From: a virus
Reading direction: 5' to 3' (one strand)
Virus record (IMG/VR): IMGVR_UViG_3300020283_000018
Span: 1-29,742 of that record
Length of the DNA: 29,742 nt
Part shown: piece after piece, positions 21,001 through 28,373 of the stretch
How positions within the stretch are numbered: position 1 is the stretch's first letter
Layout of the letters: each line of letters starts with the position of its first letter
The notes under the pieces: generated by a model
The model's database searches: none
Told to the model about the DNA's origin: nothing
Seen by the model: only the letters and a program-made list of their open reading frames with translations
Program-made: the position numbers and the translations under genes

Positions 21001-22555
21001 AAATGCTTTTGTAAGACTTGGTAGATATGATGGCAACTTTGCTACAAATCCATACATTTGGTTTAACTCATCACAAGCACAAGCTGTAGATGGAAATGGA
21101 AATCCAAGTTACAACTCTGCTATCATTGCTGATGGTGGTAATGCAACTCAAGGATCTGGTAGTCTTGAATTTAAAGTTGTAAATGAGAATGAACTTAAGG
21201 TTAATAATAACATTATCTGGAACGCAGGTAACGTTGCATTTAATAATTTAAACGTAGTTTCTACAGCATCACTTAAGTCTGCAGTAATGAGAGATACTAG
21301 TGGTAATTTCTCTGCTGGTACAATCACTGCTACATTAACAGGTGCTGCATCAGAAAACGTATTGAAAACTGGTGATACAATGACTGGTAATCTAGAGATT
21401 ACTGGTAGCAAGAATTTAACTATCCAAGGAACTGGTGCTTTTTCAGTTGGTGGTAATGCAACTGTTGGAGCTGATTTGACAGTAGATACAAACACATTAT
21501 ATGTTGATTCTACTGATAGTCGTGTTGCAATGGGTCATACAGATCCAAAAACAAAACTTCATATTGTTGGAACTGGATGGGAAAGTAATATAGTTGGTTC
21601 AAATTTACTAAGATTAGAAGCGACTGGTAATACAGGTTCTGCCATAGCACTTGAAAATGCTAACGGACAATATTGGAACATTTATAATGGAGGTTCTTCT
21701 TCTTGGGCAGGACAAGGTAACCTTGGATTTGTATATGGTGATGGAACAAACGCTGCCACAGACTATAAGATTGCATTTACTAGTGGTGGTGATATTTTAC
21801 CTGGCGACGATAGTGATCAAGACTTTGGTGCTGATGGTGCAAGATGGCAAAATTCTTACGTTGACATTTCACATGTACTTAATAGTGTAAGAATTGCAAA
21901 AGGAGAAGCAAACCAAGAAGCAGATATTCATCTTAGAGGTGGTGGAACTGGTGCTGGTGGAGGTAGAGGATTCCGTCTAGGATCTAACATTGGCGGTGGT
22001 GCTGATGTATTTGAAATCTATTCATCTCAAACCAATGGTCAAGATGATTGGAAGAGTTTAGCATCTGGAGAACCAGCACTTGCTATTCAAGGTACCAATA
22101 ACAGAGTCGGTATCAATACTAATAGTTTCAGTGGTACAGATACATCTGTCAGTCCTAATGTTTCTAGAAATTACATCATGAACATCAATGGAGACATGAA
22201 CATTGATGGTCAGTTATTCCAAAATAATGCTGAGTTTGTAACTTCTAGATGGACAAAATCTGCAAATGATTCTGGTGCTAATATCTACAGAGATTCTAAA
22301 GTTGGTATTGGTAATGTTCCAAGTCCAGCATATACACTAGATGTAGCTGGTGATCAAAACTTAACTGGAAAACTATACATCAATGGTGTAGCACAGTGGT
22401 TAGATGCTGGTGGAATTATTCGTTCTGCAGCAAATCTTGTTGATGAAAATGTTACAATTCCATCTGGACAAACAGCAGTTAGCTTCGGAAGAATTGAGCT
22501 AAATACATCTAAGACCATAACAGTTAGTTCTGGAGCAGTTTGGAAAATAGTTTAA
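12056..22555 (+). CDS. Very large beta-helical tail fibre protein (3499 residues)
   Basis: One unbroken frame of 10.5 kb. Order of modules: GxGY beta repeats near 69 and 113; a CBM-like Trp/Tyr segment (about 193-228); a right-handed beta-helix entry motif with VYVSQQIGSDLNDGR and PVRTIKKA (about 296-320), as in pectate-lyase-like fibres; two alpha-helical modules (about 770-981 and 1014-1144) sharing LVRDL, GxNHxI and YAM(C/R)NW; four tandem repeats with FTC at C1329, C1415, C1503 and C1576, plus a degenerate one at C1195; a beta-helix-like core (about 1762-1911) with RGDFDDFPIIEA; KLPTQKAVKDYI near 2125; more GxGY modules (about 2262-2580); DADLLDG/DADKLDN motifs near 2668 and 2825; and GDTMTGNLEITG near 3102, a common phage fibre motif. 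No S74-type chaperone domain is seen at the C-terminus. A long tail fibre or side fibre adsorption protein is the likely role. Confidence 0.8.
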   Translation: MSFHINSDKEKIRGVNPKLIGDNETTIRVGSGADEREVMRLELDAQSGLPRVGINRTGQRVNNIDVTAGGSGYTLAPTVVIDAPPSGGTQALASAFIFNGSVVSVAVNDPGNGYTTAPNVSFTGGNGAGAAATAVLDTVDFELDINGAIRTSTSIISDTARILNIDVENFVTPDLNMRAPNLKTYMNGTGTPWAANVIVSKDAYRYAQGNVYQATNTGTTGSSLPTHKDGIALNGEVNFKHIGFRVSDPNDFQFLQTGDSGVFPRSITPILGDRSDKIATTEYVLNLATNDVGGRVYVSQQIGSDLNDGRSAVNPVRTIKKAAQIAWSTPGIKETLIVSGGDYVEDNPISLPPDCSVVGDNLRLVIIRPANLGKHIFKFGDKNYVTGVTYRDKVDSNGDSIGTWDFAMVFDDKQRIIVDNEVNGDFGVDFPIGHQIFGPEKFRIGFQNNTGLALLQSGVEAVGLNTGARTNVIGVDFTSTTGANAYVSGTIDVQIKSGSLIEGDQYSYITSAATGAAISLTISSTAGANKLRFTTDPTTDIPVSTVVFLNDADNSSFSSGYYQVASIDTSNAPTYWDVEFVPILGASSWDTTLTETISINSATTVSNTIDTVNLKSIRAEGEVVSYDSDVTSTLPISRIDFSLQGDPSIATGGFQQAQFGSAEDLGGIVFYTNALVGRTNFHEFKEGQEIIITGMPTVSPDLSFLNGKQRIYKVLEDADGRARRFVIPKKLPSLTTSNFDPGEFATVQSYSKSITLSLLNSPNKFSLSTPVERRYQDACQLIRNNRDYIAEEVVGIINEQFSKDYFAVYNIDTSNNTFDIFLGTTDHVNTYVSGGTVTFGGTSYAISNFVYDNAVTGVATITTTNAAVNALSEDDIVKLADILISCSAGQKIYPSYSSPTSGNNTGTDGDEQCKQDVIHFLNALVRDLEFGSNHNIIEAAKKYIVDGKITYIEDEIIQNVRAIEYARELAIYAMCNWRIKNRTTADPLYTTKHATSTRYIDPTIINTTAGNPACDDVRSAIDTLSFLWVDVISNNASGTYIDAAYLIARNYDVIADQALIDTELAYPNLNLSDLHQRKCRRDIKIVLEGLVRDLVLGGNHGIVSAAEAYFSGTVLSGISEAQRPQTIYAFQRVKLYAIYAMRNWSDGNVLQTTPTGSTYVPTTGAMTVVIPDPAVAPVANSDRIAFLEGALTYSCAYNGGGNDPAPYRTDIAFGKSFLITNVVSSGGNTTISLNVGQAGSNTDAHTFVSALANGTKIIYGPIELTSPIPKFEDWSILQGPGAAPIGIFTPTNATYDPANGNLTFTTATAHNLTTSNSVRFQPESLVFTCDMDGDITEHKYPKDGQPAYANNLVITGTTTNTVTVNVGTSGPNVQFTPTDASYDPATGILTLEIGSHTLDVGEGVVIASDSLTFTCTMDGNQSQKTYPRASTDYAAERSLPITGKTATTISVNVGVSPADQGLTAVTGTTYNPNTGDLVLAVGQHGIGVGRNIVLEDGAVTFTCLQDNNQTTHAYPRSTDPASGTSLEVTAVGESQHTVTNAVYTGSTGVMVVTSAGHGFSNGDYVKFDDDSLTFTCDLDNNATNHTYPRSTDRASNRWLQISNKTNDTFEVNVGVNTDGGTHAFVTATSNGLKRQTGTLTVNVGTSSNTTAHTFVSGLGGGVKFLPQSTHTFVSAAANAVSHSPQTTHAFKRANADAVSAYASTSAANNAICASVESSIDTALELFEDILDGTTVAGSTTQTFGTLYDTAGIVTYPDSFITDFQNQRMAIRGDFDDFPIIEASPYTQNASVISFRGGGGALVDGSKVKQPNCPFPGLEPDGSASFPNQGKSMVAAAFTIVSFGGTGYKVIEDGYTQLVSVFVIFCQDGVLCETGGYASITNSATNFGTFALRGTGFRRECYEFDQATVNTVSQTPTGRTTMTIGGIGREPLEHYILKVDGYRNLDPDKEFFIDAVSAVTVGPPFSATITLDDGIGNGLSLIRESDGAQIQGLTALQAALTPAAAANATIKLHRPSIVNSSSHTWEFAGSGNNYLALPENGGTKVEANEQVSQDYGRVYVSGTDELGDFKVGTFARIENRTGNITFTGTVTISEVEFLKLKGGDVVVTGFDASNTLGGANSSDSKLPTQKAVKDYITNNLGPYINKPYSTNAVPRALVELTDSGKISIDQIPALRPFQVFTVATQADRLKIEGALAGDIAIQQDTSQSFILNNDLESLFLGFAVDSNLVFNINDVYTGSPSTGRIQATEYRQGIVYQINITDGGSGYTVAPTVTISGGNPSSGAVAATATATIANGEVVTIEITENANYLGGFGYTTQPVVTIQAPPGAGTQATANALIESRLYGDIVNNIKMLDTDTFDDSDSPSANTINIGRVVNTSSTNANNWVSLSSNQIAASDITSGVIETDRLATGGAANSFTFLRGDQNFAPAVQSIKGAETRYFARLYTQASNGASSFIFETNSDALIGHTVVASVAGIAASTSINGVTTVGGLTTVSLNNPITATIAAGTVIEFQRGESPLTFDSSNTVGGFIDSVVIANPGSGYTDGQYFDISLDGGSGTDLRVNLIVAGGAVTDATVTNAGSGYTADFQITPNPIGIGSGSNLVLLAKVSTVNKQFANVAVDVQRVSDLTISADEFGTIGVARFRKSQFNIGTEGNGSITIKTGPDSGLDADLLDGQQGAYYLNGAFFVDNSIVPDKLASGVYSIDITGRSTNTLRVDTGINNPTSNPAPSDSVQGLTLQTVFNSSNGLLTAFPSVDTGTSNSSKHLVMTLRNGESGIDATFGGVRQLAFANDDRIYLRGSGDGVTNYGSWYEIWNSGNQGIDSGLDADKLDNKEGEWYQDGWNIKKNTVFDTRLPTWRSSTKFRNKIEVKSYTGTDVSYRILVRLVLDVGVGGDFEPGSQINIYNVNKQDIGDFFIDNVQQLDDQNDSSNSYTMLIGRLASGGNLENAVFLGVAGDEKNFENYEIFDSNTTQFAELGNNSGNAFVRLGRYDGNFATNPYIWFNSSQAQAVDGNGNPSYNSAIIADGGNATQGSGSLEFKVVNENELKVNNNIIWNAGNVAFNNLNVVSTASLKSAVMRDTSGNFSAGTITATLTGAASENVLKTGDTMTGNLEITGSKNLTIQGTGAFSVGGNATVGADLTVDTNTLYVDSTDSRVAMGHTDPKTKLHIVGTGWESNIVGSNLLRLEATGNTGSAIALENANGQYWNIYNGGSSSWAGQGNLGFVYGDGTNAATDYKIAFTSGGDILPGDDSDQDFGADGARWQNSYVDISHVLNSVRIAKGEANQEADIHLRGGGTGAGGGRGFRLGSNIGGGADVFEIYSSQTNGQDDWKSLASGEPALAIQGTNNRVGINTNSFSGTDTSVSPNVSRNYIMNINGDMNIDGQLFQNNAEFVTSRWTKSANDSGANIYRDSKVGIGNVPSPAYTLDVAGDQNLTGKLYINGVAQWLDAGGIIRSAANLVDENVTIPSGQTAVSFGRIELNTSKTITVSSGAVWKIV
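15626..16875 (+). repeat. Tandem Cys/His beta repeats inside the 3499-residue fibre gene
   Basis: Four protein-level repeats of about 73-88 residues carry the core FTCxxDxNxxxHxYPR. The cysteines are residues 1329, 1415, 1503 and 1576 of the fibre. A histidine nine residues later is present in copies 1, 3 and 4 (H1338, H1512, H1585) and is lysine in copy 2. A degenerate fifth copy begins near residue 1191 (SCAYNGGGNDPAPYR, C1195). Each is followed by a strand ending in (V/I)NVG and often by HTFV. The copies are diverged in DNA, so the duplication is old. Confidence 0.75.
22498..22505 (+). promoter_or_regulatory. Possible late-promoter motif GCTAAATA inside fibre gene end
   Basis: GCTAAATA occurs 53 bases before the ATG at 22559, within the last codons of the giant fibre gene. 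It is identical to the intergenic motifs at 12013 and 27266. Because the gap before the next gene is only three bases, any dedicated promoter for that gene would have to lie here. A chance match is possible. Confidence 0.3.
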
Positions 22556-22558
22556 TCA

Positions 22559-23413
22559 ATGGCACGTTTTTATTCTTCTAGATTTCAGTCCGAGCGAGTA
22601 ACTTGCTCTGATGGATTAAAAGTACCCATTTTAGATTCAGATCCTCTTGATGGGGAAGACGCTGAAATGATGTATATTGATGGGCAATTAAAGTATTATT
22701 ATAATGGCGAGTGGCAAAACGTCAAAGTAAAGAGAAGAGATGGATCATCTGCAGCTGCAGCTGCACTTAGCGCAACAGGATTAAAACAAACTTTAGGAGC
22801 TAGTGCTTCTAATGGTCCTTACTGGTATCAACTTATTGATGGAACTACACAACAGTTATACACTGATTTCAATACATTTGCGCCATATAATTTTGTTATG
22901 GTATCTAGAATATCTAATACCACAGTTAATCAATATTTAACAAGTGCTATTGATCCTCAAGATTTAGCACTTACTCCTAATGATACTGCTCCTACAAAAG
23001 TATCTAAATTGACTGATATTAATATGGGAGGAATTCAAACAGGAGGAACAATTAGATGGGTTATTTCTGGAGATAAATGGATGTTTTATAGAATGACAGC
23101 AACACCAAAATGGACTTCTGATTTTGGAACTGTTGCTTGCTGTTCTTGTGGTGGTTTTAATGGATATGATGCGTATGCTACACCTGCTTCTGCTCCAAAT
23201 TGGCAAACTGGATCAATTTACGCAGGTGGATGTGGTGGTGGACAAGATAATGGTGGATCATGGATGACCTTATCTGGAATTCATGTTAATGATAATACTT
23301 ATCCAGGAGGTTATGCTGGTACTTCTGGTGCTCAAGGTAATACAGCTTCTCCATACTTAAACGGTGGTGGAACAGGATGGAGTAGAAATGGTTACGTCTT
23401 AATGTCATGGTAA
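22559..23413 (+). CDS. Fibre-tip protein with fibrinogen/collagen-C-like domain (putative)
   Basis: A 284-residue protein starting three bases after the giant fibre gene stops. The N-terminal region (about 25-58) contains DGQLKYYYNGEWQNV, a short attachment motif common in marine phage fibre proteins and echoed in the two downstream glycine-rich proteins. An Ala-rich linker (about 65-70) precedes a segment with SNGPYWYQLIDGTTQQLYTD (about 84-104) that resembles the entry of fibrinogen-related and fibrillar-collagen C-terminal domains. A cysteine-dense patch follows (C194, C195, C197, C225) in a Gly/Trp/Tyr-rich C-terminal half ending in RNGYVLMSW. The domain match is by motif only. Likely role: receptor-binding tip or distal fibre subunit. 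Confidence 0.6.
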   Translation: MARFYSSRFQSERVTCSDGLKVPILDSDPLDGEDAEMMYIDGQLKYYYNGEWQNVKVKRRDGSSAAAAALSATGLKQTLGASASNGPYWYQLIDGTTQQLYTDFNTFAPYNFVMVSRISNTTVNQYLTSAIDPQDLALTPNDTAPTKVSKLTDINMGGIQTGGTIRWVISGDKWMFYRMTATPKWTSDFGTVACCSCGGFNGYDAYATPASAPNWQTGSIYAGGCGGGQDNGGSWMTLSGIHVNDNTYPGGYAGTSGAQGNTASPYLNGGGTGWSRNGYVLMSW

Positions 23414-23419
23414 TAAATA
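23412..23419 (+). promoter_or_regulatory. Putative T4-like late promoter (AATAAATA)
   Basis: AATAAATA overlaps the stop codon of the preceding gene (TAA at 23411-23413) and ends 22 bases before the next ATG. Spacing and sequence fit the T4-like late promoter class. A GAGG sequence near 23425 is a weak, rather distant ribosome-binding candidate. Confidence 0.5.
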
Positions 23420-23441: not shown

Positions 23442-24464
23442 ATGGGAATTTTAAATGTTGGTGTTGGAGAAGCTGCGGAATCTATTATCCTTCCAAAAAT
23501 TTCAACTGCTCAAAGAAATGCTCTTCCTCCAGAGACAGGACAATTAATCTTTAATACTGATGATTTTGAGGTTCAGTTCTATAACGGAACAGAATGGAAA
23601 AATGCAGGATCTGCTCCATTTGAAGCTACTGGTGGAACTGTAACTGATGTTGGTGGATATAGAATTCATTCGTTTACTAACGACGGAGCATTTGTCGTAA
23701 CCGCTGGTTCAAGAAGTTGCGAATTCCTAGTCGTCGCTGGAGGCGGTGGCGGAGGAGGCTGGGGTGGCGGTGGCGGTGCTGGTGGATACCGTAATTCCGT
23801 CCAAGGAGAATTATCAGGATCTGCCATTTCAAACGAAGGTCAGTTAGTAGCTGTTCAAGGATCTTATACAATTAAAGTTGGAAACGGAGGATCAAGAGGA
23901 ACCACAGGATATACTGGTGGTGGTCCTGGAGGAGATTCTTATATTATAGGTCCTGGTGGAATTAATATTACATCTATAGGTGGTGCTGGAGGAGGATGGT
24001 GGCAAGCTAATGTCCCTGCTCAAGGCGGTTCTGGTGGCGGTGGATCAGGATCAGGATCAGGTTCTCAAGGAACACCTGGTCAAGGATCAGCTGGAGGACC
24101 TGGTCAAGGGTCTCAAAGTGGTCCTTACTTAGGTCATGGTGGCGGTGGCGGTGCTGGTCAAATTGGTGGCACTGGGTCTGGTGTTATTGGAGGTACAGGT
24201 GGTAACGGACTAACTTCTTCAATTACTGGAGTTGCTCAACAAAGAGCAGGTGGCGGAGGAGGTCATTCTCCTGGTTTAGGAAATGCTTCTGTTGCTCCTG
24301 GTGGTGCTGGTGGTGGTGGAAAAGGTGGTAATTATTATAACGCTGCTCAAGCTGATAATGGTGATGACAATTCTGGTGGTGGCGGTGGTGGAAATTATGG
24401 AGATAATTCCAGACTTTGTGGAGAAGGTGGATCTGGTATTGTCATTATTAGATATCAAATCTAA
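23442..24464 (+). CDS. Glycine-rich adhesin-like fibre protein, copy 1
   Basis: A 340-residue protein. The N-terminus (about 1-55) has TAQRNALPPETGQLIFNTDD and FYNGTEWKN, a short capsid/fibre attachment motif. A beta strand segment (about 65-97) with HSFTNDGAFVV and CEFLVVAGGG leads into a long glycine-rich body with GGYR, WWQANVPA, GPYLGHGGGGGAG and GGGGGHSPGLG blocks, closing with LCGEGGSGIVIIRY at the C-terminus. This architecture matches the glycine-rich domain family found in marine phage fibres and recalls the polyglycine sandwich of T-even gp38 adhesins (analogy, not demonstrated homology). It is closely paralogous to the next gene. Likely a receptor-binding tip protein. Confidence 0.7.
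   Translation: MGILNVGVGEAAESIILPKISTAQRNALPPETGQLIFNTDDFEVQFYNGTEWKNAGSAPFEATGGTVTDVGGYRIHSFTNDGAFVVTAGSRSCEFLVVAGGGGGGGWGGGGGAGGYRNSVQGELSGSAISNEGQLVAVQGSYTIKVGNGGSRGTTGYTGGGPGGDSYIIGPGGINITSIGGAGGGWWQANVPAQGGSGGGGSGSGSGSQGTPGQGSAGGPGQGSQSGPYLGHGGGGGAGQIGGTGSGVIGGTGGNGLTSSITGVAQQRAGGGGGHSPGLGNASVAPGGAGGGGKGGNYYNAAQADNGDDNSGGGGGGNYGDNSRLCGEGGSGIVIIRYQI
24042..24059 (+). repeat. Hexanucleotide tandem repeat (GGATCA)x3
   Basis: Three perfect GGATCA units encode Gly-Ser-Gly-Ser-Gly-Ser in glycine-rich copy 1. The equivalent part of copy 2 reads GSGSGNGG, without the pure repeat. Slippage could change linker length in steps of two residues without breaking the frame. Confidence 0.6.
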
Positions 24465-24467
24465 ATA
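24460..24467 (+). promoter_or_regulatory. Putative T4-like late promoter (TCTAAATA)
   Basis: TCTAAATA contains the stop codon of glycine-rich copy 1 (TAA 24462-24464) and ends 22 bases before the ATG of copy 2, the same spacing seen upstream of copy 1. Confidence 0.45.
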
Positions 24468-24489: not shown

Positions 24490-25530
24490 ATGTCAAAAAT
24501 TATTGTAGATCAATTAAATGCAACTGAAGCATTTAAAGTTCCAACATTTACTGAAGCACAAAGAGATGCTTTGACAAATGTTCAGGAAGGATTTTTGATT
24601 CATAATTCTACAGCAGAGCAAATGGAAATTTATTATTCTGGTGATTGGAGAAATCCAGGTAATAAAACTGCTGCAGGAGGTGGTACTCTTACAGCTACTG
24701 GAGGTGCTATAAACACTGCTGGTGCTTATAAAGTTCATACTTTTACTACTGATGGTATTTTTAATGTTGCATCTGGAACCGCAGAAATAGAATACTTAGT
24801 TATCGCTGGAGGCGGTGGCGGAGGAGGCTGGGGTGGCGGAGGAGGAGCTGGAGGATATAGATGCTCTGTCCTTGGTGAGCAATCTGGTGGTAACACTCCT
24901 GCCGAAAACAAAATTCAAGTAAGTCCTGGTCAATATAGTATAAAAGTTGGAAGTGGAGGATCAAGAGGAACCACAGGATATACTGGTGGTGGTGCTGGAG
25001 GAAACTCTGAAATTTCTGGTCCTGGTATTTCAGTTACTTCTAAAGGTGGTGCTGGAGGAGGATGGTGGCAAGCTAATGTTCCTGCAGTTGGTGGATCTGG
25101 TGGCGGTGGATCAGGTAGTGGTAATGGTGGAGCAGGAACACCTGGTCAAGGAAATGATGGAGGTCCTGGTCAAGGAAGTCAGTCTGGTCCTTACTTAGGT
25201 CACGGTGGTGGCGGTGGTGCTGGACAAATAGGAGGAACTGGTTCTGGAGTTATCGGTGGTAATGGTGGTGATGGACTTAACTCACTTATTACTGGACAAG
25301 CACTCACACGAGCTGGTGGAGGCGGTGGTCATTCGCCTGGTTTAGGAAACTCAGGAACCTCTTCTGGTGGTTCTGGTGGTGGAGGTGGTGGTGGAAACTA
25401 CTACAACGCACAACAAGCTGACAATGGTCAAGATGGAACAGGTGGTGGCGGTGGTGGAAACTACGGAGATTCAGCTAGACTTTGTGGAGAAGGTGGAGCT
25501 GGTGTTGTAATTATCAGATATCCAGCTTAG
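24490..25530 (+). CDS. Glycine-rich adhesin-like fibre protein, copy 2
   Basis: A 346-residue paralogue of the preceding protein with the same architecture: a short N-terminal attachment region (TEAQRDALTNVQEGFLIHNS, then IYYSGDWRNPG), a beta segment (HTFTTDGIFNV, EYLVIAGGG), then the glycine-rich body with WWQANVPAVGG, GPYLGHGGGGGAG and HSPGLGN blocks and the C-terminal LCGEGGAGVVIIRY. The N-terminal about 55 residues are strongly diverged from copy 1, while several glycine-rich blocks are almost identical. C-terminal cysteine and the single HSP motif are conserved in both. Its own promoter-like motif precedes it. Either a second adhesin subunit with a different attachment site or an alternative receptor-binding tip. 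Confidence 0.7.
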   Translation: MSKIIVDQLNATEAFKVPTFTEAQRDALTNVQEGFLIHNSTAEQMEIYYSGDWRNPGNKTAAGGGTLTATGGAINTAGAYKVHTFTTDGIFNVASGTAEIEYLVIAGGGGGGGWGGGGGAGGYRCSVLGEQSGGNTPAENKIQVSPGQYSIKVGSGGSRGTTGYTGGGAGGNSEISGPGISVTSKGGAGGGWWQANVPAVGGSGGGGSGSGNGGAGTPGQGNDGGPGQGSQSGPYLGHGGGGGAGQIGGTGSGVIGGNGGDGLNSLITGQALTRAGGGGGHSPGLGNSGTSSGGSGGGGGGGNYYNAQQADNGQDGTGGGGGGNYGDSARLCGEGGAGVVIIRYPA

Positions 25531-25537
25531 ATAAATA
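25530..25537 (+). promoter_or_regulatory. Putative T4-like late promoter (GATAAATA)
   Basis: GATAAATA begins on the last base of the preceding stop codon (TAG 25528-25530) and ends 19 bases before the ATG at 25557. It is the best match here to the T4 late consensus TATAAATA (one mismatch). It could drive the group 25557-27274, whose genes are tightly spaced. Confidence 0.55.
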
Positions 25538-25556: not shown

Positions 25557-26060
25557 ATGGCACATTTTGCAAGATTAAATGAAAATAACGTTGTTGTGGC
25601 TGTACATAGGGTGTCAAACGTTGATTGCTGTGATGAGACTGGTCAAGAAAAGGAACATGTTGGTATTGAATTTCTCAGAAAATTGTGGGGGAGAAATACT
25701 ATCTGGGTGCAGACTTCATATAACGGTAAAATAAGAAAACGTTATGCTTATATTGGCGGAACATATGATACAGGTAGAGATGCTTTTTTACCACCTAAAC
25801 CATTTGATTCGTGGATTTTAGATGAAAACACATGTGACTGGATTCCTCCAGTAAAACATCCAGAACCAAATGGTATTGATTTGAATGATCCATTTAAGTA
25901 TGTTTGGGATGAATCAAAAATGGAATGGCATAAAACAACCTCAGATGAAGATGTTGGTAAATACATGGCACAAATGAAACCTATACCAGTTGATCCAACA
26001 CCAGGAGATAAATCAGTACGTGATACTGGTAAATTTGGAGATTACGTTGCACCTGAATGA
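25557..26060 (+). CDS. Conserved marine-phage protein, QTSYN/PPKPF family
   Basis: A 167-residue protein of a family I recognise from cyanophage and other marine phage tail regions. Hallmarks: an N-terminal MAHFARLNENNVVVAVHRVS strand, WVQTSYN followed by RKRYAYIGGTYD, then RDAFLPPKPFDSWILDE and a Trp-containing end. Members are usually next to fibre genes; a role in fibre assembly or as a minor tail protein has been assumed but I know of no experimental function. Here it lies between the glycine-rich adhesins and two oxygenase-like genes, six bases before the first oxygenase gene, suggesting shared transcription. No signal peptide or membrane segment. Confidence 0.7.
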   Translation: MAHFARLNENNVVVAVHRVSNVDCCDETGQEKEHVGIEFLRKLWGRNTIWVQTSYNGKIRKRYAYIGGTYDTGRDAFLPPKPFDSWILDENTCDWIPPVKHPEPNGIDLNDPFKYVWDESKMEWHKTTSDEDVGKYMAQMKPIPVDPTPGDKSVRDTGKFGDYVAPE

Positions 26061-26066
26061 TAATTT

Positions 26067-26732
26067 ATGAAATTTCCTACATTATGTGTTGATGACTTTT
26101 ATAAAAATCCAGAACAAATAAGAGACTTCGCTCTCTCTTTAGAATATTCAAAACCAGAAGGAATTTATCCTGGCGAAAGAACAAAATATCTTCATGAAAT
26201 AGATAAAAAATTGTTTCAGCAGTTTTGTGAAAAACTGTTTTCTTTATTTTTTAACTATAAAGTAGAACGTTGTGATTGGCAAATTGAGACTAGGTTTCAA
26301 AAAACATATTCATTTACCGATAATCCAAAAAATTTAATTAACTCTGGATGGGATCATTTAGATAACAATGTTTTCGCAGCTGGCATTATCTACTTAAACA
26401 AAAACAATACTATTGATAGTGGAACTACTATCAGCAAATTAACTAAAGATATAGATGTATTTGATTATTCTATAAGAGATAAAATGTATCATGATCGGTT
26501 AGAAGATATTGATAAGTATAAAAATGCATTAGAGAATCACAAGAAACATTTTGAGGATACCATCATATTTAAAAATGTTTTTAATAGAATGATATGCTAT
26601 GATAGTTCACAATGGCACAGAGAAACAAATTTGTTTTATGAAAATGAACCGAGATTGACACAGGTATTTTTTATACATGATGTAAAAGCAGAGTCATTTC
26701 CAGTAGAACGTTGTATGAGTTATCCATTATGA
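26067..26732 (+). CDS. 2OG-Fe(II) oxygenase-like protein (DUF6445-type, putative)
   Basis: A 221-residue protein beginning MKFPTLCVDDFYKNPEQIRDFALSL, a start typical of phage and bacterial 2-oxoglutarate/Fe(II) dioxygenase relatives of the DUF6445 kind. The iron site is readable: H97 and D99 in WDHLDNN, then H184 in SQWHRETN, with R196 (PRLTQVFFI) twelve residues later as the likely 2-oxoglutarate carboxylate binder. The fold would be a double-stranded beta helix in the cytoplasm of the infected cell. Its stop overlaps the next start (ATGA at 26729-26732). The substrate is unknown; neighbours suggest fibre proteins, but small molecules or host proteins are equally possible. Confidence 0.7.
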   Translation: MKFPTLCVDDFYKNPEQIRDFALSLEYSKPEGIYPGERTKYLHEIDKKLFQQFCEKLFSLFFNYKVERCDWQIETRFQKTYSFTDNPKNLINSGWDHLDNNVFAAGIIYLNKNNTIDSGTTISKLTKDIDVFDYSIRDKMYHDRLEDIDKYKNALENHKKHFEDTIIFKNVFNRMICYDSSQWHRETNLFYENEPRLTQVFFIHDVKAESFPVERCMSYPL

Positions 26733-27274
26733 ATAGATTATCTCTTTTTGAAACTCCATTATGGATGACTGAGTTAGACCTTGATTTGAATTCTCTTGAA
26801 AATAAAATTAAATTATTTTCAGATGAAACAGAATCTAAAAAACTTTCAAACGTTGGAGGATATCAAGGACATAATTTTCATGACGAAACTTTATATAACT
26901 CAATAGCAAATTGTATTCCTGTAAATAAAAACAAACCACTTGAAAATGTATCAATATATTCTTGGGTAAACATCAACAAAAAATTTAATAGGAATGAAAG
27001 ACACTGCCACATGCACACTGATACTCTTTTATCAGGTGTTTTTTATGTAAAGTACCCAGAAAATTCTGGTACTATTAGATTTTATGATCCTAGAGGACAT
27101 CTAATTCAGATGCAAAAAGACTATGAATATTACTATGATGGATATGCATACACATATATTAATCCAAAAAATAATTTACTATTACTTTTTCCATCCTGGC
27201 TAGAACATGATGTTGAAGAAAACAAGTCAGATGATGAGAGAATATCAATAGCATTTAACATCAATGCTAAATAA
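26729..27274 (+). CDS. 2OG-Fe(II) oxygenase family protein
   Basis: I place the start at ATG 26729, giving 181 residues; an in-frame TTG at 26711 would add six residues that overlap the previous gene more deeply. The four-base ATGA overlap indicates coupled translation. The protein resembles the putative 2OG-Fe(II) oxygenase family common in cyanophages: N-terminal RLSLFETPLW, a central HCHMHTDTLLSGVFYV block giving H96-x-D98 (H92 and H94 are nearby alternatives), PENSGTIRFYDPR, then LLLFPSWLEHDV with H160 and DDERISIAFNI with R171. All expected ligands are present, so it is probably active. It differs greatly from its neighbour, so this is a pair of distinct enzymes and not a recent duplication. 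Confidence 0.8.
   Translation: MNRLSLFETPLWMTELDLDLNSLENKIKLFSDETESKKLSNVGGYQGHNFHDETLYNSIANCIPVNKNKPLENVSIYSWVNINKKFNRNERHCHMHTDTLLSGVFYVKYPENSGTIRFYDPRGHLIQMQKDYEYYYDGYAYTYINPKNNLLLLFPSWLEHDVEENKSDDERISIAFNINAK
27266..27273 (+). promoter_or_regulatory. Putative T4-like late promoter (GCTAAATA)
   Basis: GCTAAATA overlaps the stop codon at 27272-27274 and ends 28 bases before the ATG at 27302. It is identical to the motif at 12013. Confidence 0.45.
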
Positions 27275-27301: not shown

Positions 27302-27499
27302 ATGGATCCTGCACAATTAAAAAAGAATTTTGAAGAACAAATTGCTAGTACAGTAAAGCAAATTGGAGAACTAGAAACAAATTTAACGAAAGCAAAAGAA
27401 TATAAAATTAAACTAGAGGGTGGTTTAGAAACCTTAAACTTACTAGAAGAAAAACCAGAAGAAACTGCTGCACCAGTACCAGAAACACCAGCAGAATAA
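27302..27499 (+). CDS. Small coiled-coil phage protein
   Basis: Start chosen at ATG 27302 (65 residues, MDPAQLKKNFEEQI); a TTG at 27293 would add only three residues and lacks support. Nearly the whole protein to about residue 50 is a charged amphipathic helix with coiled-coil spacing (IASTVKQIGELETNLTKAKE, then KIKLEGGLETLNLLEE), followed by a Pro/Glu-rich tail (PEETAAPVPETPAE). Similar short proteins occur just upstream of gp13 in T4-like cyanophages. Function unknown; an assembly chaperone or minor structural protein is a guess from size and neighbourhood. Confidence 0.65.
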   Translation: MDPAQLKKNFEEQIASTVKQIGELETNLTKAKEYKIKLEGGLETLNLLEEKPEETAAPVPETPAE

Positions 27500-27506: not shown

Positions 27507-27541
27507 ATCCCTTCTTCCTAAATAGGTAGGAAGGGATTTTT
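27507..27541 (+). terminator. Rho-independent terminator upstream of gp13
   Basis: ATCCCTTC (27507-27514) pairs perfectly with GAAGGGAT (27530-27537), followed by a run of five T (27537-27541, sharing one base with the stem). The 15-base loop can form a small inner helix (CCT/AGG), and an alternative pairing of CTTCCTA with TAGGAAG is possible. It is the only clear intrinsic terminator I see in the window and separates the fibre/oxygenase block from the neck genes. Confidence 0.75.
27517..27524 (+). promoter_or_regulatory. Putative late promoter inside the terminator loop (CCTAAATA)
   Basis: CCTAAATA lies between the two arms of the terminator and ends 24 bases before the gp13 ATG at 27549, the same spacing as the other putative late promoters here. 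Initiation about six bases downstream would place the start site within or just before the distal hairpin arm, so the new transcript would not form the full hairpin. Confidence 0.45.
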
Positions 27542-27548
27542 GTGTATA

Positions 27549-28373
27549 ATGGCATCTCCAAGTTCTAGAGCTGAACTCATCACATATTGCAAGAGGCAAC
27601 TTGGTGAACCCGTGTTGCAAGTTAATATTGATGACGAACAGGTTAACAACGTAATAGACGACACGTTTCAGTTTTTTCAAGAGAACTGTTACAATGGTAT
27701 GGAACGTGCTTATTTGTATCACGAAATCAGTGCTGACGATAAAACTCGTTTTGCAGCAACAGTTACTAAGACAGTTACTGATACTAATGTAACACCAAAT
27801 GCTACTGGAACTTGGTTAGAAGCAACAAACTTTATTCCAATTCCTGATCATGTAGTTGGTATTACTAGAGTATTTGGTCTTGTCAGTAACTCAATCCGTT
27901 CTAATCTCTTTGGTGTTGAGTTTCAGTTGTTCTTGAATGATCTATATGCATTTGGATCACTGGATATCCTTAACTACTATATGAATAAACAGTATCTAGA
28001 AACTCTAGATATGGTTCTAAACAATGGATCTTTTCAGCAGTTTAGATTTACAGCACGTAATGATCGTCTATACCTTGATATAGATAAAGACTTTTTAAAA
28101 GAAGGAACTAATGTTCTTATTGAATGTCATCGTCTTATTGATCCTACGGAAGCTACACAGATGAACAATGACGTTTTTGTGAAAAGATATGCCACAGCTC
28201 TTATGAAGAGACAGTGGGGTATGAACCTAATTAAGTATAACAATGTTCAGTTACCTGGCGGAGTTACACTTAATGGTAGAGAAATCTACACAGACGCACT
28301 TGCAGAAATTGAGACACTTGAGTCAGAAGTTCTTAGCAAGTACGCAATACCACCAATGGATATGATCGGATAA
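27549..28373 (+). CDS. gp13: Neck protein, T4 gp13-like
   Basis: Start set at ATG 27549 (MASPSSRAELITYCKRQLGE, 274 residues); the in-frame TTG at 27540 lies in the terminator T-tract and is unlikely. The N-terminal sequence, the following VNIDDEQVNNVIDDTFQFFQ and YLYHEISADD, and the C-terminal MKRQWGMNLIKYNNVQLPGG are characteristic of gp13 neck proteins of T4-like marine phages. T4 gp13 is about 309 residues, so this is a somewhat shorter family member. In T4, gp13 and gp14 form the neck that closes the filled head and docks the tail. gp14 follows after a single spacer base and gp15 next, the expected order. Confidence 0.9.
   Translation: MASPSSRAELITYCKRQLGEPVLQVNIDDEQVNNVIDDTFQFFQENCYNGMERAYLYHEISADDKTRFAATVTKTVTDTNVTPNATGTWLEATNFIPIPDHVVGITRVFGLVSNSIRSNLFGVEFQLFLNDLYAFGSLDILNYYMNKQYLETLDMVLNNGSFQQFRFTARNDRLYLDIDKDFLKEGTNVLIECHRLIDPTEATQMNNDVFVKRYATALMKRQWGMNLIKYNNVQLPGGVTLNGREIYTDALAEIETLESEVLSKYAIPPMDMIG

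Follow-up and report, generated by a model that had tools for sequence, protein, structure and literature searches.

Gene order and late-type motifs between the fibre and neck genes

We analysed the virus record IMGVR_UViG_3300020283_000018 over positions 1 to 29,742, and this whole stretch of 29,742 bases is called the window here. It belongs to a marine, T4-like phage of Kyanoviridae type, whose host is inferred; the gp13 protein of the window is 87% identical to gp13 of Synechococcus phage Sf-CH1b. Fibre genes run to position 22555 and are followed by a gene for a 284-aa protein, two glycine-rich genes, a gene for a 167-aa protein, two genes for 2-oxoglutarate (2OG)-type oxygenases (ox1 and ox2), a gene for a 65-aa protein, and gp13-, gp14- and gp15-type neck/tail genes. 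All five genes from the first glycine-rich gene to ox2 are on the same strand, and profile identities bear out the layout described by an earlier sequence-only reading, which had placed the oxygenases downstream of two glycine-rich genes and a further gene. The span given there for the oxygenases, 25557-27274, includes the 167-aa gene; the oxygenases proper occupy 26067-27274. The features of the region are as follows.

23413-23419, plus strand: late-promoter-type motif ATAAATA, before adhesin 1
23442-24464, plus strand: glycine-rich adhesin 1 (340 aa, PF21722, 32% Gly)
24461-24467, plus strand: late-promoter-type motif CTAAATA, before adhesin 2
24490-25530, plus strand: glycine-rich adhesin 2 (346 aa, PF21722, 65.5% identical to adhesin 1)
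25531-25537, plus strand: late-promoter-type motif ATAAATA, 26 bp before the 167-aa gene
25557-26060, plus strand: 167-aa adhesin-partner protein (phrog_7759), in an assembly-factor-like position
26067-26732, plus strand: ox1, DUF6445 (PF20043) 2OG-type oxygenase with H97/D99/H184/R196
26729-27274, plus strand: ox2, 2OG-FeII_Oxy_5 (PF13759, TIGR02466) with invariant H92/H94/H160 and near-invariant R171, in ATGA overlap with ox1
27267-27273, plus strand: late-promoter-type motif CTAAATA, at the end of ox2 and before the 65-aa gene
27302-27499, plus strand: 65-aa phrog_580 protein, between ox2 and gp13
27512-27535, plus strand: terminator-like hairpin with a T tail, before gp13
27549-28373, plus strand: gp13-type neck protein (phrog_211), the anchor of survey 1

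The stop codon TGA of ox1 and the start codon ATG of ox2 share positions 26729-26732, confirming the overlap that had been read from the letters. The two oxygenases had also been called non-paralogous, which is right at the family level.

The motif [AC]TAAATA, which resembles the late promoter of T4, TATAAAT (PMC3037559), occurs in nine plus-strand copies in the window, and each of them is followed by a start codon 26-61 bp downstream (binomial P about 1e-15). Besides the four copies listed above, two further ones precede gp13, at 27496 and 27518, and the latter (CTAAATA) sits inside the terminator-like hairpin. The scan of the window found no copy directly before ox1 or ox2. Because the 167-aa gene has a motif of its own and ox1 and ox2 have none, the two oxygenase genes would most simply be co-transcribed with the 167-aa gene. 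The proposal of one late promoter for the whole set is wrong: separate copies precede each adhesin gene and the 167-aa gene, so that the oxygenases are late-type genes but depend on a different copy of the motif from the adhesins. A sigma-70 promoter scan of the window returned 21 sites, compared with 20.2 in shuffled sequences.

Families, fold and iron ligands of the two oxygenases

Ox1 matches PF20043 with an E-value of 9e-12 and 45.8 bits, above the curated Pfam cut-off of 24. H97, D99, H184 and R196, the ligands named by the sequence-only reading, are invariant in an alignment of 11 divergent proteins, most of them 18-26% identical to ox1, and give it the H-x-D...H...R pattern of the Fe(II)/2OG oxygenase superfamily. 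The structure model of ox1 is too poor to use (pLDDT 61.6), and its Foldseek matches are iron oxygenases at E-values of 0.01 or worse. The PHROG label of its family, "minor coat protein", is rejected for ox1 because of these invariant ligands. Proteins with traits of 2OG oxygenases carry the PHROG names of phrog_1644, phrog_274 and phrog_2297 ("minor coat protein", and possibly "DNA endonuclease V" as well), and annotations of phage genomes taken from these names may be misleading.

Ox2 passes the cut-offs of both PF13759 (E 5e-24; 85.2 bits against 27) and TIGR02466 (88.1 bits against 62.5). Among 39 divergent relatives, W79, H92, H94 and H160 are invariant, and R171, at the position of the usual 2OG-binding arginine of the superfamily, is kept in at least 90%. 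The H-x-D/E...H iron-ligand pattern is not found across these relatives; the invariant set is H-x-H...H (H92, H94 and H160). Of the ligands first read as H96/D98/H160/R171, then, H160 and R171 stand, but H96 and D98 are unconserved and the invariant pair is H92/H94. A comparison with the closest relatives (RHTHLDTEIFLSG versus RHCHMHTDTLLSG) shows that H96 and D98 are not retained even at ~51% identity, and in a profile-profile alignment H92-x-H94 lines up with the HxD/HxE column in families of PF13640 type. Ox2 is accordingly filed here under PF13759, not as a canonical HxD enzyme. Given the invariant H-x-H...H, the loss of H96 and D98 in the closest relatives and the profile alignment, ox2 and the PF13759 family may use three histidines as iron ligands.

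The AF2 model of ox2 (pLDDT 91.2) has a double-stranded beta-helix fold. It matches 3bvc (Z 19.1) and 2rg4 (Z 18.7), as well as the prolyl hydroxylases P. putida P4H (Z 17.0), PHD2 (16.3) and PBCV-1 vCPH (15.6). AlkB and SnoN match it too, and the fold cannot separate protein substrates from small-molecule ones.

Recurrence of the adhesin, partner and oxygenase genes

The two glycine-rich genes of the window score 59.5 and 46.5 bits against PF21722. Concerted evolution of the pair is unsupported, since orthologues are more alike than paralogues. The 167-aa protein has no Pfam match, and its description as a proven tail chaperone was rejected: profile comparison gave no support, with an hhalign probability of 0.2% against the PF16778-type (Phage_tail_APC) group, from shallow profiles. 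The sequence-only reading underrated this gene, whose family is the adhesin partner gene in the surveys that follow.

Survey 1 was anchored on gp13 and covered 80 contigs. The number of 2OG genes at the junction between fibre genes and gp13 ranges from zero to about ten, whether or not glycine-rich genes are present, and several families are represented. We counted by hand the junctions that read through to a fibre gene, one per architecture, and found both kinds of gene in 8, glycine-rich genes only in 3, 2OG genes only in 5 and neither in 7, an association that is not significant (P 0.21). 2OG genes are widespread in 14 named genomes, also where there is no Gly_rich_2 match, and many cyanophages carry numerous 2OG genes distant from adhesins, with PF13759 and PF13640 members scattered genome-wide. 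Taken alone, this null result and the wide spread of 2OG genes would favour reading them as cargo.

Survey 2, anchored on DUF6445, compared the 28 nearest loci with 51 distant ones; many loci are related, and the counts are not independent. A glycine-rich gene was recognised by profile in 16/28 of the nearest loci, and a PF13759 gene adjoins DUF6445 in 18/28; both figures are 0/51 for the distant loci. The order of a glycine-rich gene, a 167-aa family gene and 2OG, DUF6445 or PF13759 genes also occurs at a different genome site in divergent phages (L107, L110, L112, L113, L115, L116 and others), and L115 has the window's own order of adhesin, partner, DUF6445 and PF13759. A further scan, anchored on glycine-rich genes, yielded three loci only and was uninformative.

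Survey 3 was anchored on the 167-aa family and blind to adhesins and oxygenases. Of the 69 viral loci, 62 have a glycine-rich gene at most three genes upstream of the 167-aa family gene. Within two positions of the anchor, 29 of 195 genes are 2OG genes, against 1 of 238 at four or more (P 5e-10), a contrast that persists after dereplication at 70% (P 2e-5) and 60% identity (P 0.002); at 50%, four loci are left and the comparison is uninformative. One clade of 18 related enzymes supplies part of this statistic. We tested eight contigs (10-82 kb; completeness not established) in which the genes run adhesin, small gene, PF13759, 167-aa family; in every one this PF13759 gene is the sole match to its family, and it is about -4 to +6 nt away from the partner gene. 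The module is also present in the named phages DSL-LC04, ctNMl277, S-SSM5, P-RSM4 and S-RSM4. The module thus recurs in unrelated phages, and the co-occurrence of oxygenase and glycine-rich genes that had been proposed as a test is seen in two of the three surveys but not in the gp13-anchored one.

In a tree of 153 PF13759 proteins, the partner-adjacent members fall into 16 separate groups, a clade of 18 and 15 smaller ones, with 14 Fitch changes for adjacency compared with 33 in shuffles. The adhesin neighbourhood therefore arose repeatedly, and many lineages have recruited such enzymes. A 2OG gene is missing from most pairs of glycine-rich and 167-aa genes (51 of 76 viral and 21 of 23 cellular loci); the adhesin as such can thus do without the enzyme. 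In cellular genomes the glycine-rich/partner pair is present in 19/19, and 2OG neighbours were found in 2 of 23 loci (2/52 genes versus 0/88, P 0.14), so that the oxygenase link is not replicated there. A constant pair with rare 2OG genes marks the enzyme as an optional part.

Two close relatives bear on the cassette and on its proposed target sites. L001 carries the 167-aa/ox1/ox2 cassette at ~98-100% DNA identity without the adhesins, and its short open reading frame at 1347-1498 has a different start but still includes, in frame, the final 29 codons of adhesin 2. The adhesin pair was probably either lost there by recent deletion or removed by a contig artefact or wrong join; with this in-frame remnant, L001 says little about independence of the cassette and was rejected as proof of it. 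In L002, ox2 is replaced by another PF13759 protein and the adhesins are 80% identical to those of the window. Of the proline sites said to be conserved, HSPGLG is kept in L002, but GTPGQG is lost (both PGQG sites are gone), one or two GPG are lost and one GPYLGHG reads SPYLGHG. Adhesins next to a 2OG gene are not significantly richer in proline than the others (3.2 versus 2.8%, P 0.15). The link to the adhesin is therefore supported, and the link to those prolines is not. Among the adhesins of L180-L259, tyrosine is lower beside 2OG genes (2.4 versus 3.6%, P 1e-5), a difference confounded by clade; as only tyrosine clearly differs, composition was rejected as a pointer to the modified residue.

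Other enzyme genes stand in these neighbourhoods. Tryptophan halogenase genes (PF04820) occur among 2OG genes at L003:4587-5669, L031:814-2316, L039:5267-6760, L082:1114-2571 and L007:1606-3207, several of them near glycine-rich adhesins. A NodU/NolO-type carbamoyltransferase adjoins adhesin, 2OG and 167-aa genes at L035:5621-7270 and L211:3960-5609 and in L262 (S-SSM5) and L263 (P-RSM4).

Proposed role and comparison with known systems

To our knowledge, cyanophages carry many 2OG oxygenases with no known substrate. We propose that a glycine-rich adhesin, its 167-aa partner and one or more 2OG oxygenases form an adhesin operon of which ox1 and ox2 would be the optional enzyme part. Produced late, alongside the partner protein, ox1 and ox2 would hydroxylate residues of the adhesin, of the fibre it caps or of the partner before assembly, in a reaction that depends on Fe(II), O2 and 2-oxoglutarate, and hydroxylation would tune the folding of the tip or its contact with the receptor. 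The gene identities, the predicted fold of ox2, the conserved ligands, the late-type motif, the overlap and the module's recurrence in unrelated phages are direct observations; from them we infer enzyme activity and the adhesin as substrate, as well as a modified residue and an effect on binding. Adhesin modification is the best single reading of the two genes, and we give about an even chance to their being optional, late-made enzymes whose target is the adhesin itself or a component needed in building it. The idea that oxygenases modify the receptor-binding tips of the virion is thus better founded than the sequence-only reading could know, through the adhesin association in two of three surveys, and wrong in some details, the named proline sites being only partly conserved.

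The enzymes might instead be auxiliary metabolic genes that act on small molecules of host or phage or draw down 2-oxoglutarate, with the fibre-neck junction taking up cargo. Published proposals for cyanophage 2OG enzymes are of this kind, concerning 2-oxoglutarate levels, host metabolism or DNA repair (PMC3037559, PMC9602691), and it fits the zero to about ten 2OG genes at the gp13 junction irrespective of glycine-rich genes and the dispersal of PF13759 and PF13640 through whole genomes. We nevertheless regard it as rather unlikely, because other phages wedge a lone PF13759 gene between adhesin and partner with almost no spacing, and 2OG genes are nearly absent four or more genes away in loci of the 167-aa family.

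Modification of a host surface glycan, a receptor precursor or another late protein, for example in blocking superinfection or aiding release, would agree with the NodU/NolO-type carbamoyltransferases, tryptophan halogenases and a methyltransferase in the same regions of several relatives; the constant partner, however, is the adhesin partner gene and not sugar genes, which makes this improbable. The invariant histidine of PF13759 where the superfamily has Asp or Glu could mean that one or both enzymes are no longer 2OG oxygenases, and that H-x-H...H binds metal for another oxidation or a structural job. The near-invariant R171, the match of the ox2 fold to 2OG hydroxylases and the HxD...H...R retained by ox1 argue against it, and we think it very improbable.

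Since the adhesin operon recurs in many unrelated phages, we suggest that phages of some kinds alter the chemistry of the tips with which they bind receptors. The operon link to a receptor-binding adhesin, also where only one PF13759 gene was found, points to a definite, easily tested substrate. If the suggestion is right, phage host range would have a post-translational layer that is invisible in the genome sequence alone. A broader idea, which we consider unlikely, is that phages of many kinds tailor glycine-rich tip adhesins after translation and so change host recognition, by 2OG hydroxylases of several families (some with three histidines) and, in some phages, by a tryptophan halogenase, carbamoyltransferase or methyltransferase. 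The literature searched described no 2OG enzymes acting on phage fibres, and its papers no description of an adhesin-2OG link, which is not proof of absence.

Several known systems resemble parts of this locus. Ox1 is like other DUF6445 (PF20043)/phrog_1644 members in passing the Pfam cut-off and in its invariant HxD...H...R, with which the coat-protein label is at odds. Ox2 is a PF13759/TIGR02466 protein by both cut-offs, and the solved structures nearest to it, 3bvc and 2rg4, belong to uncharacterised members; in the window it has its place within an adhesin operon. With the prolyl 4-hydroxylases (P. putida P4H, PHD2 and PBCV-1 vCPH), the ox2 model has a common fold at Z 15.6-17.0, but ox2 is 14-17% identical to them and has His instead of Asp at the third ligand column, and no Gly-X-Hyp collagen repeat was recognised in the window adhesins. 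The pair of a Gly_rich_2 (PF21722) adhesin and a phrog_7759 partner is the one found in most surveyed loci, whereas the window has two tandem adhesins for one partner gene and then two oxygenases. The proposed tailoring of phage adhesins would be comparable to the tailoring of peptide natural products.
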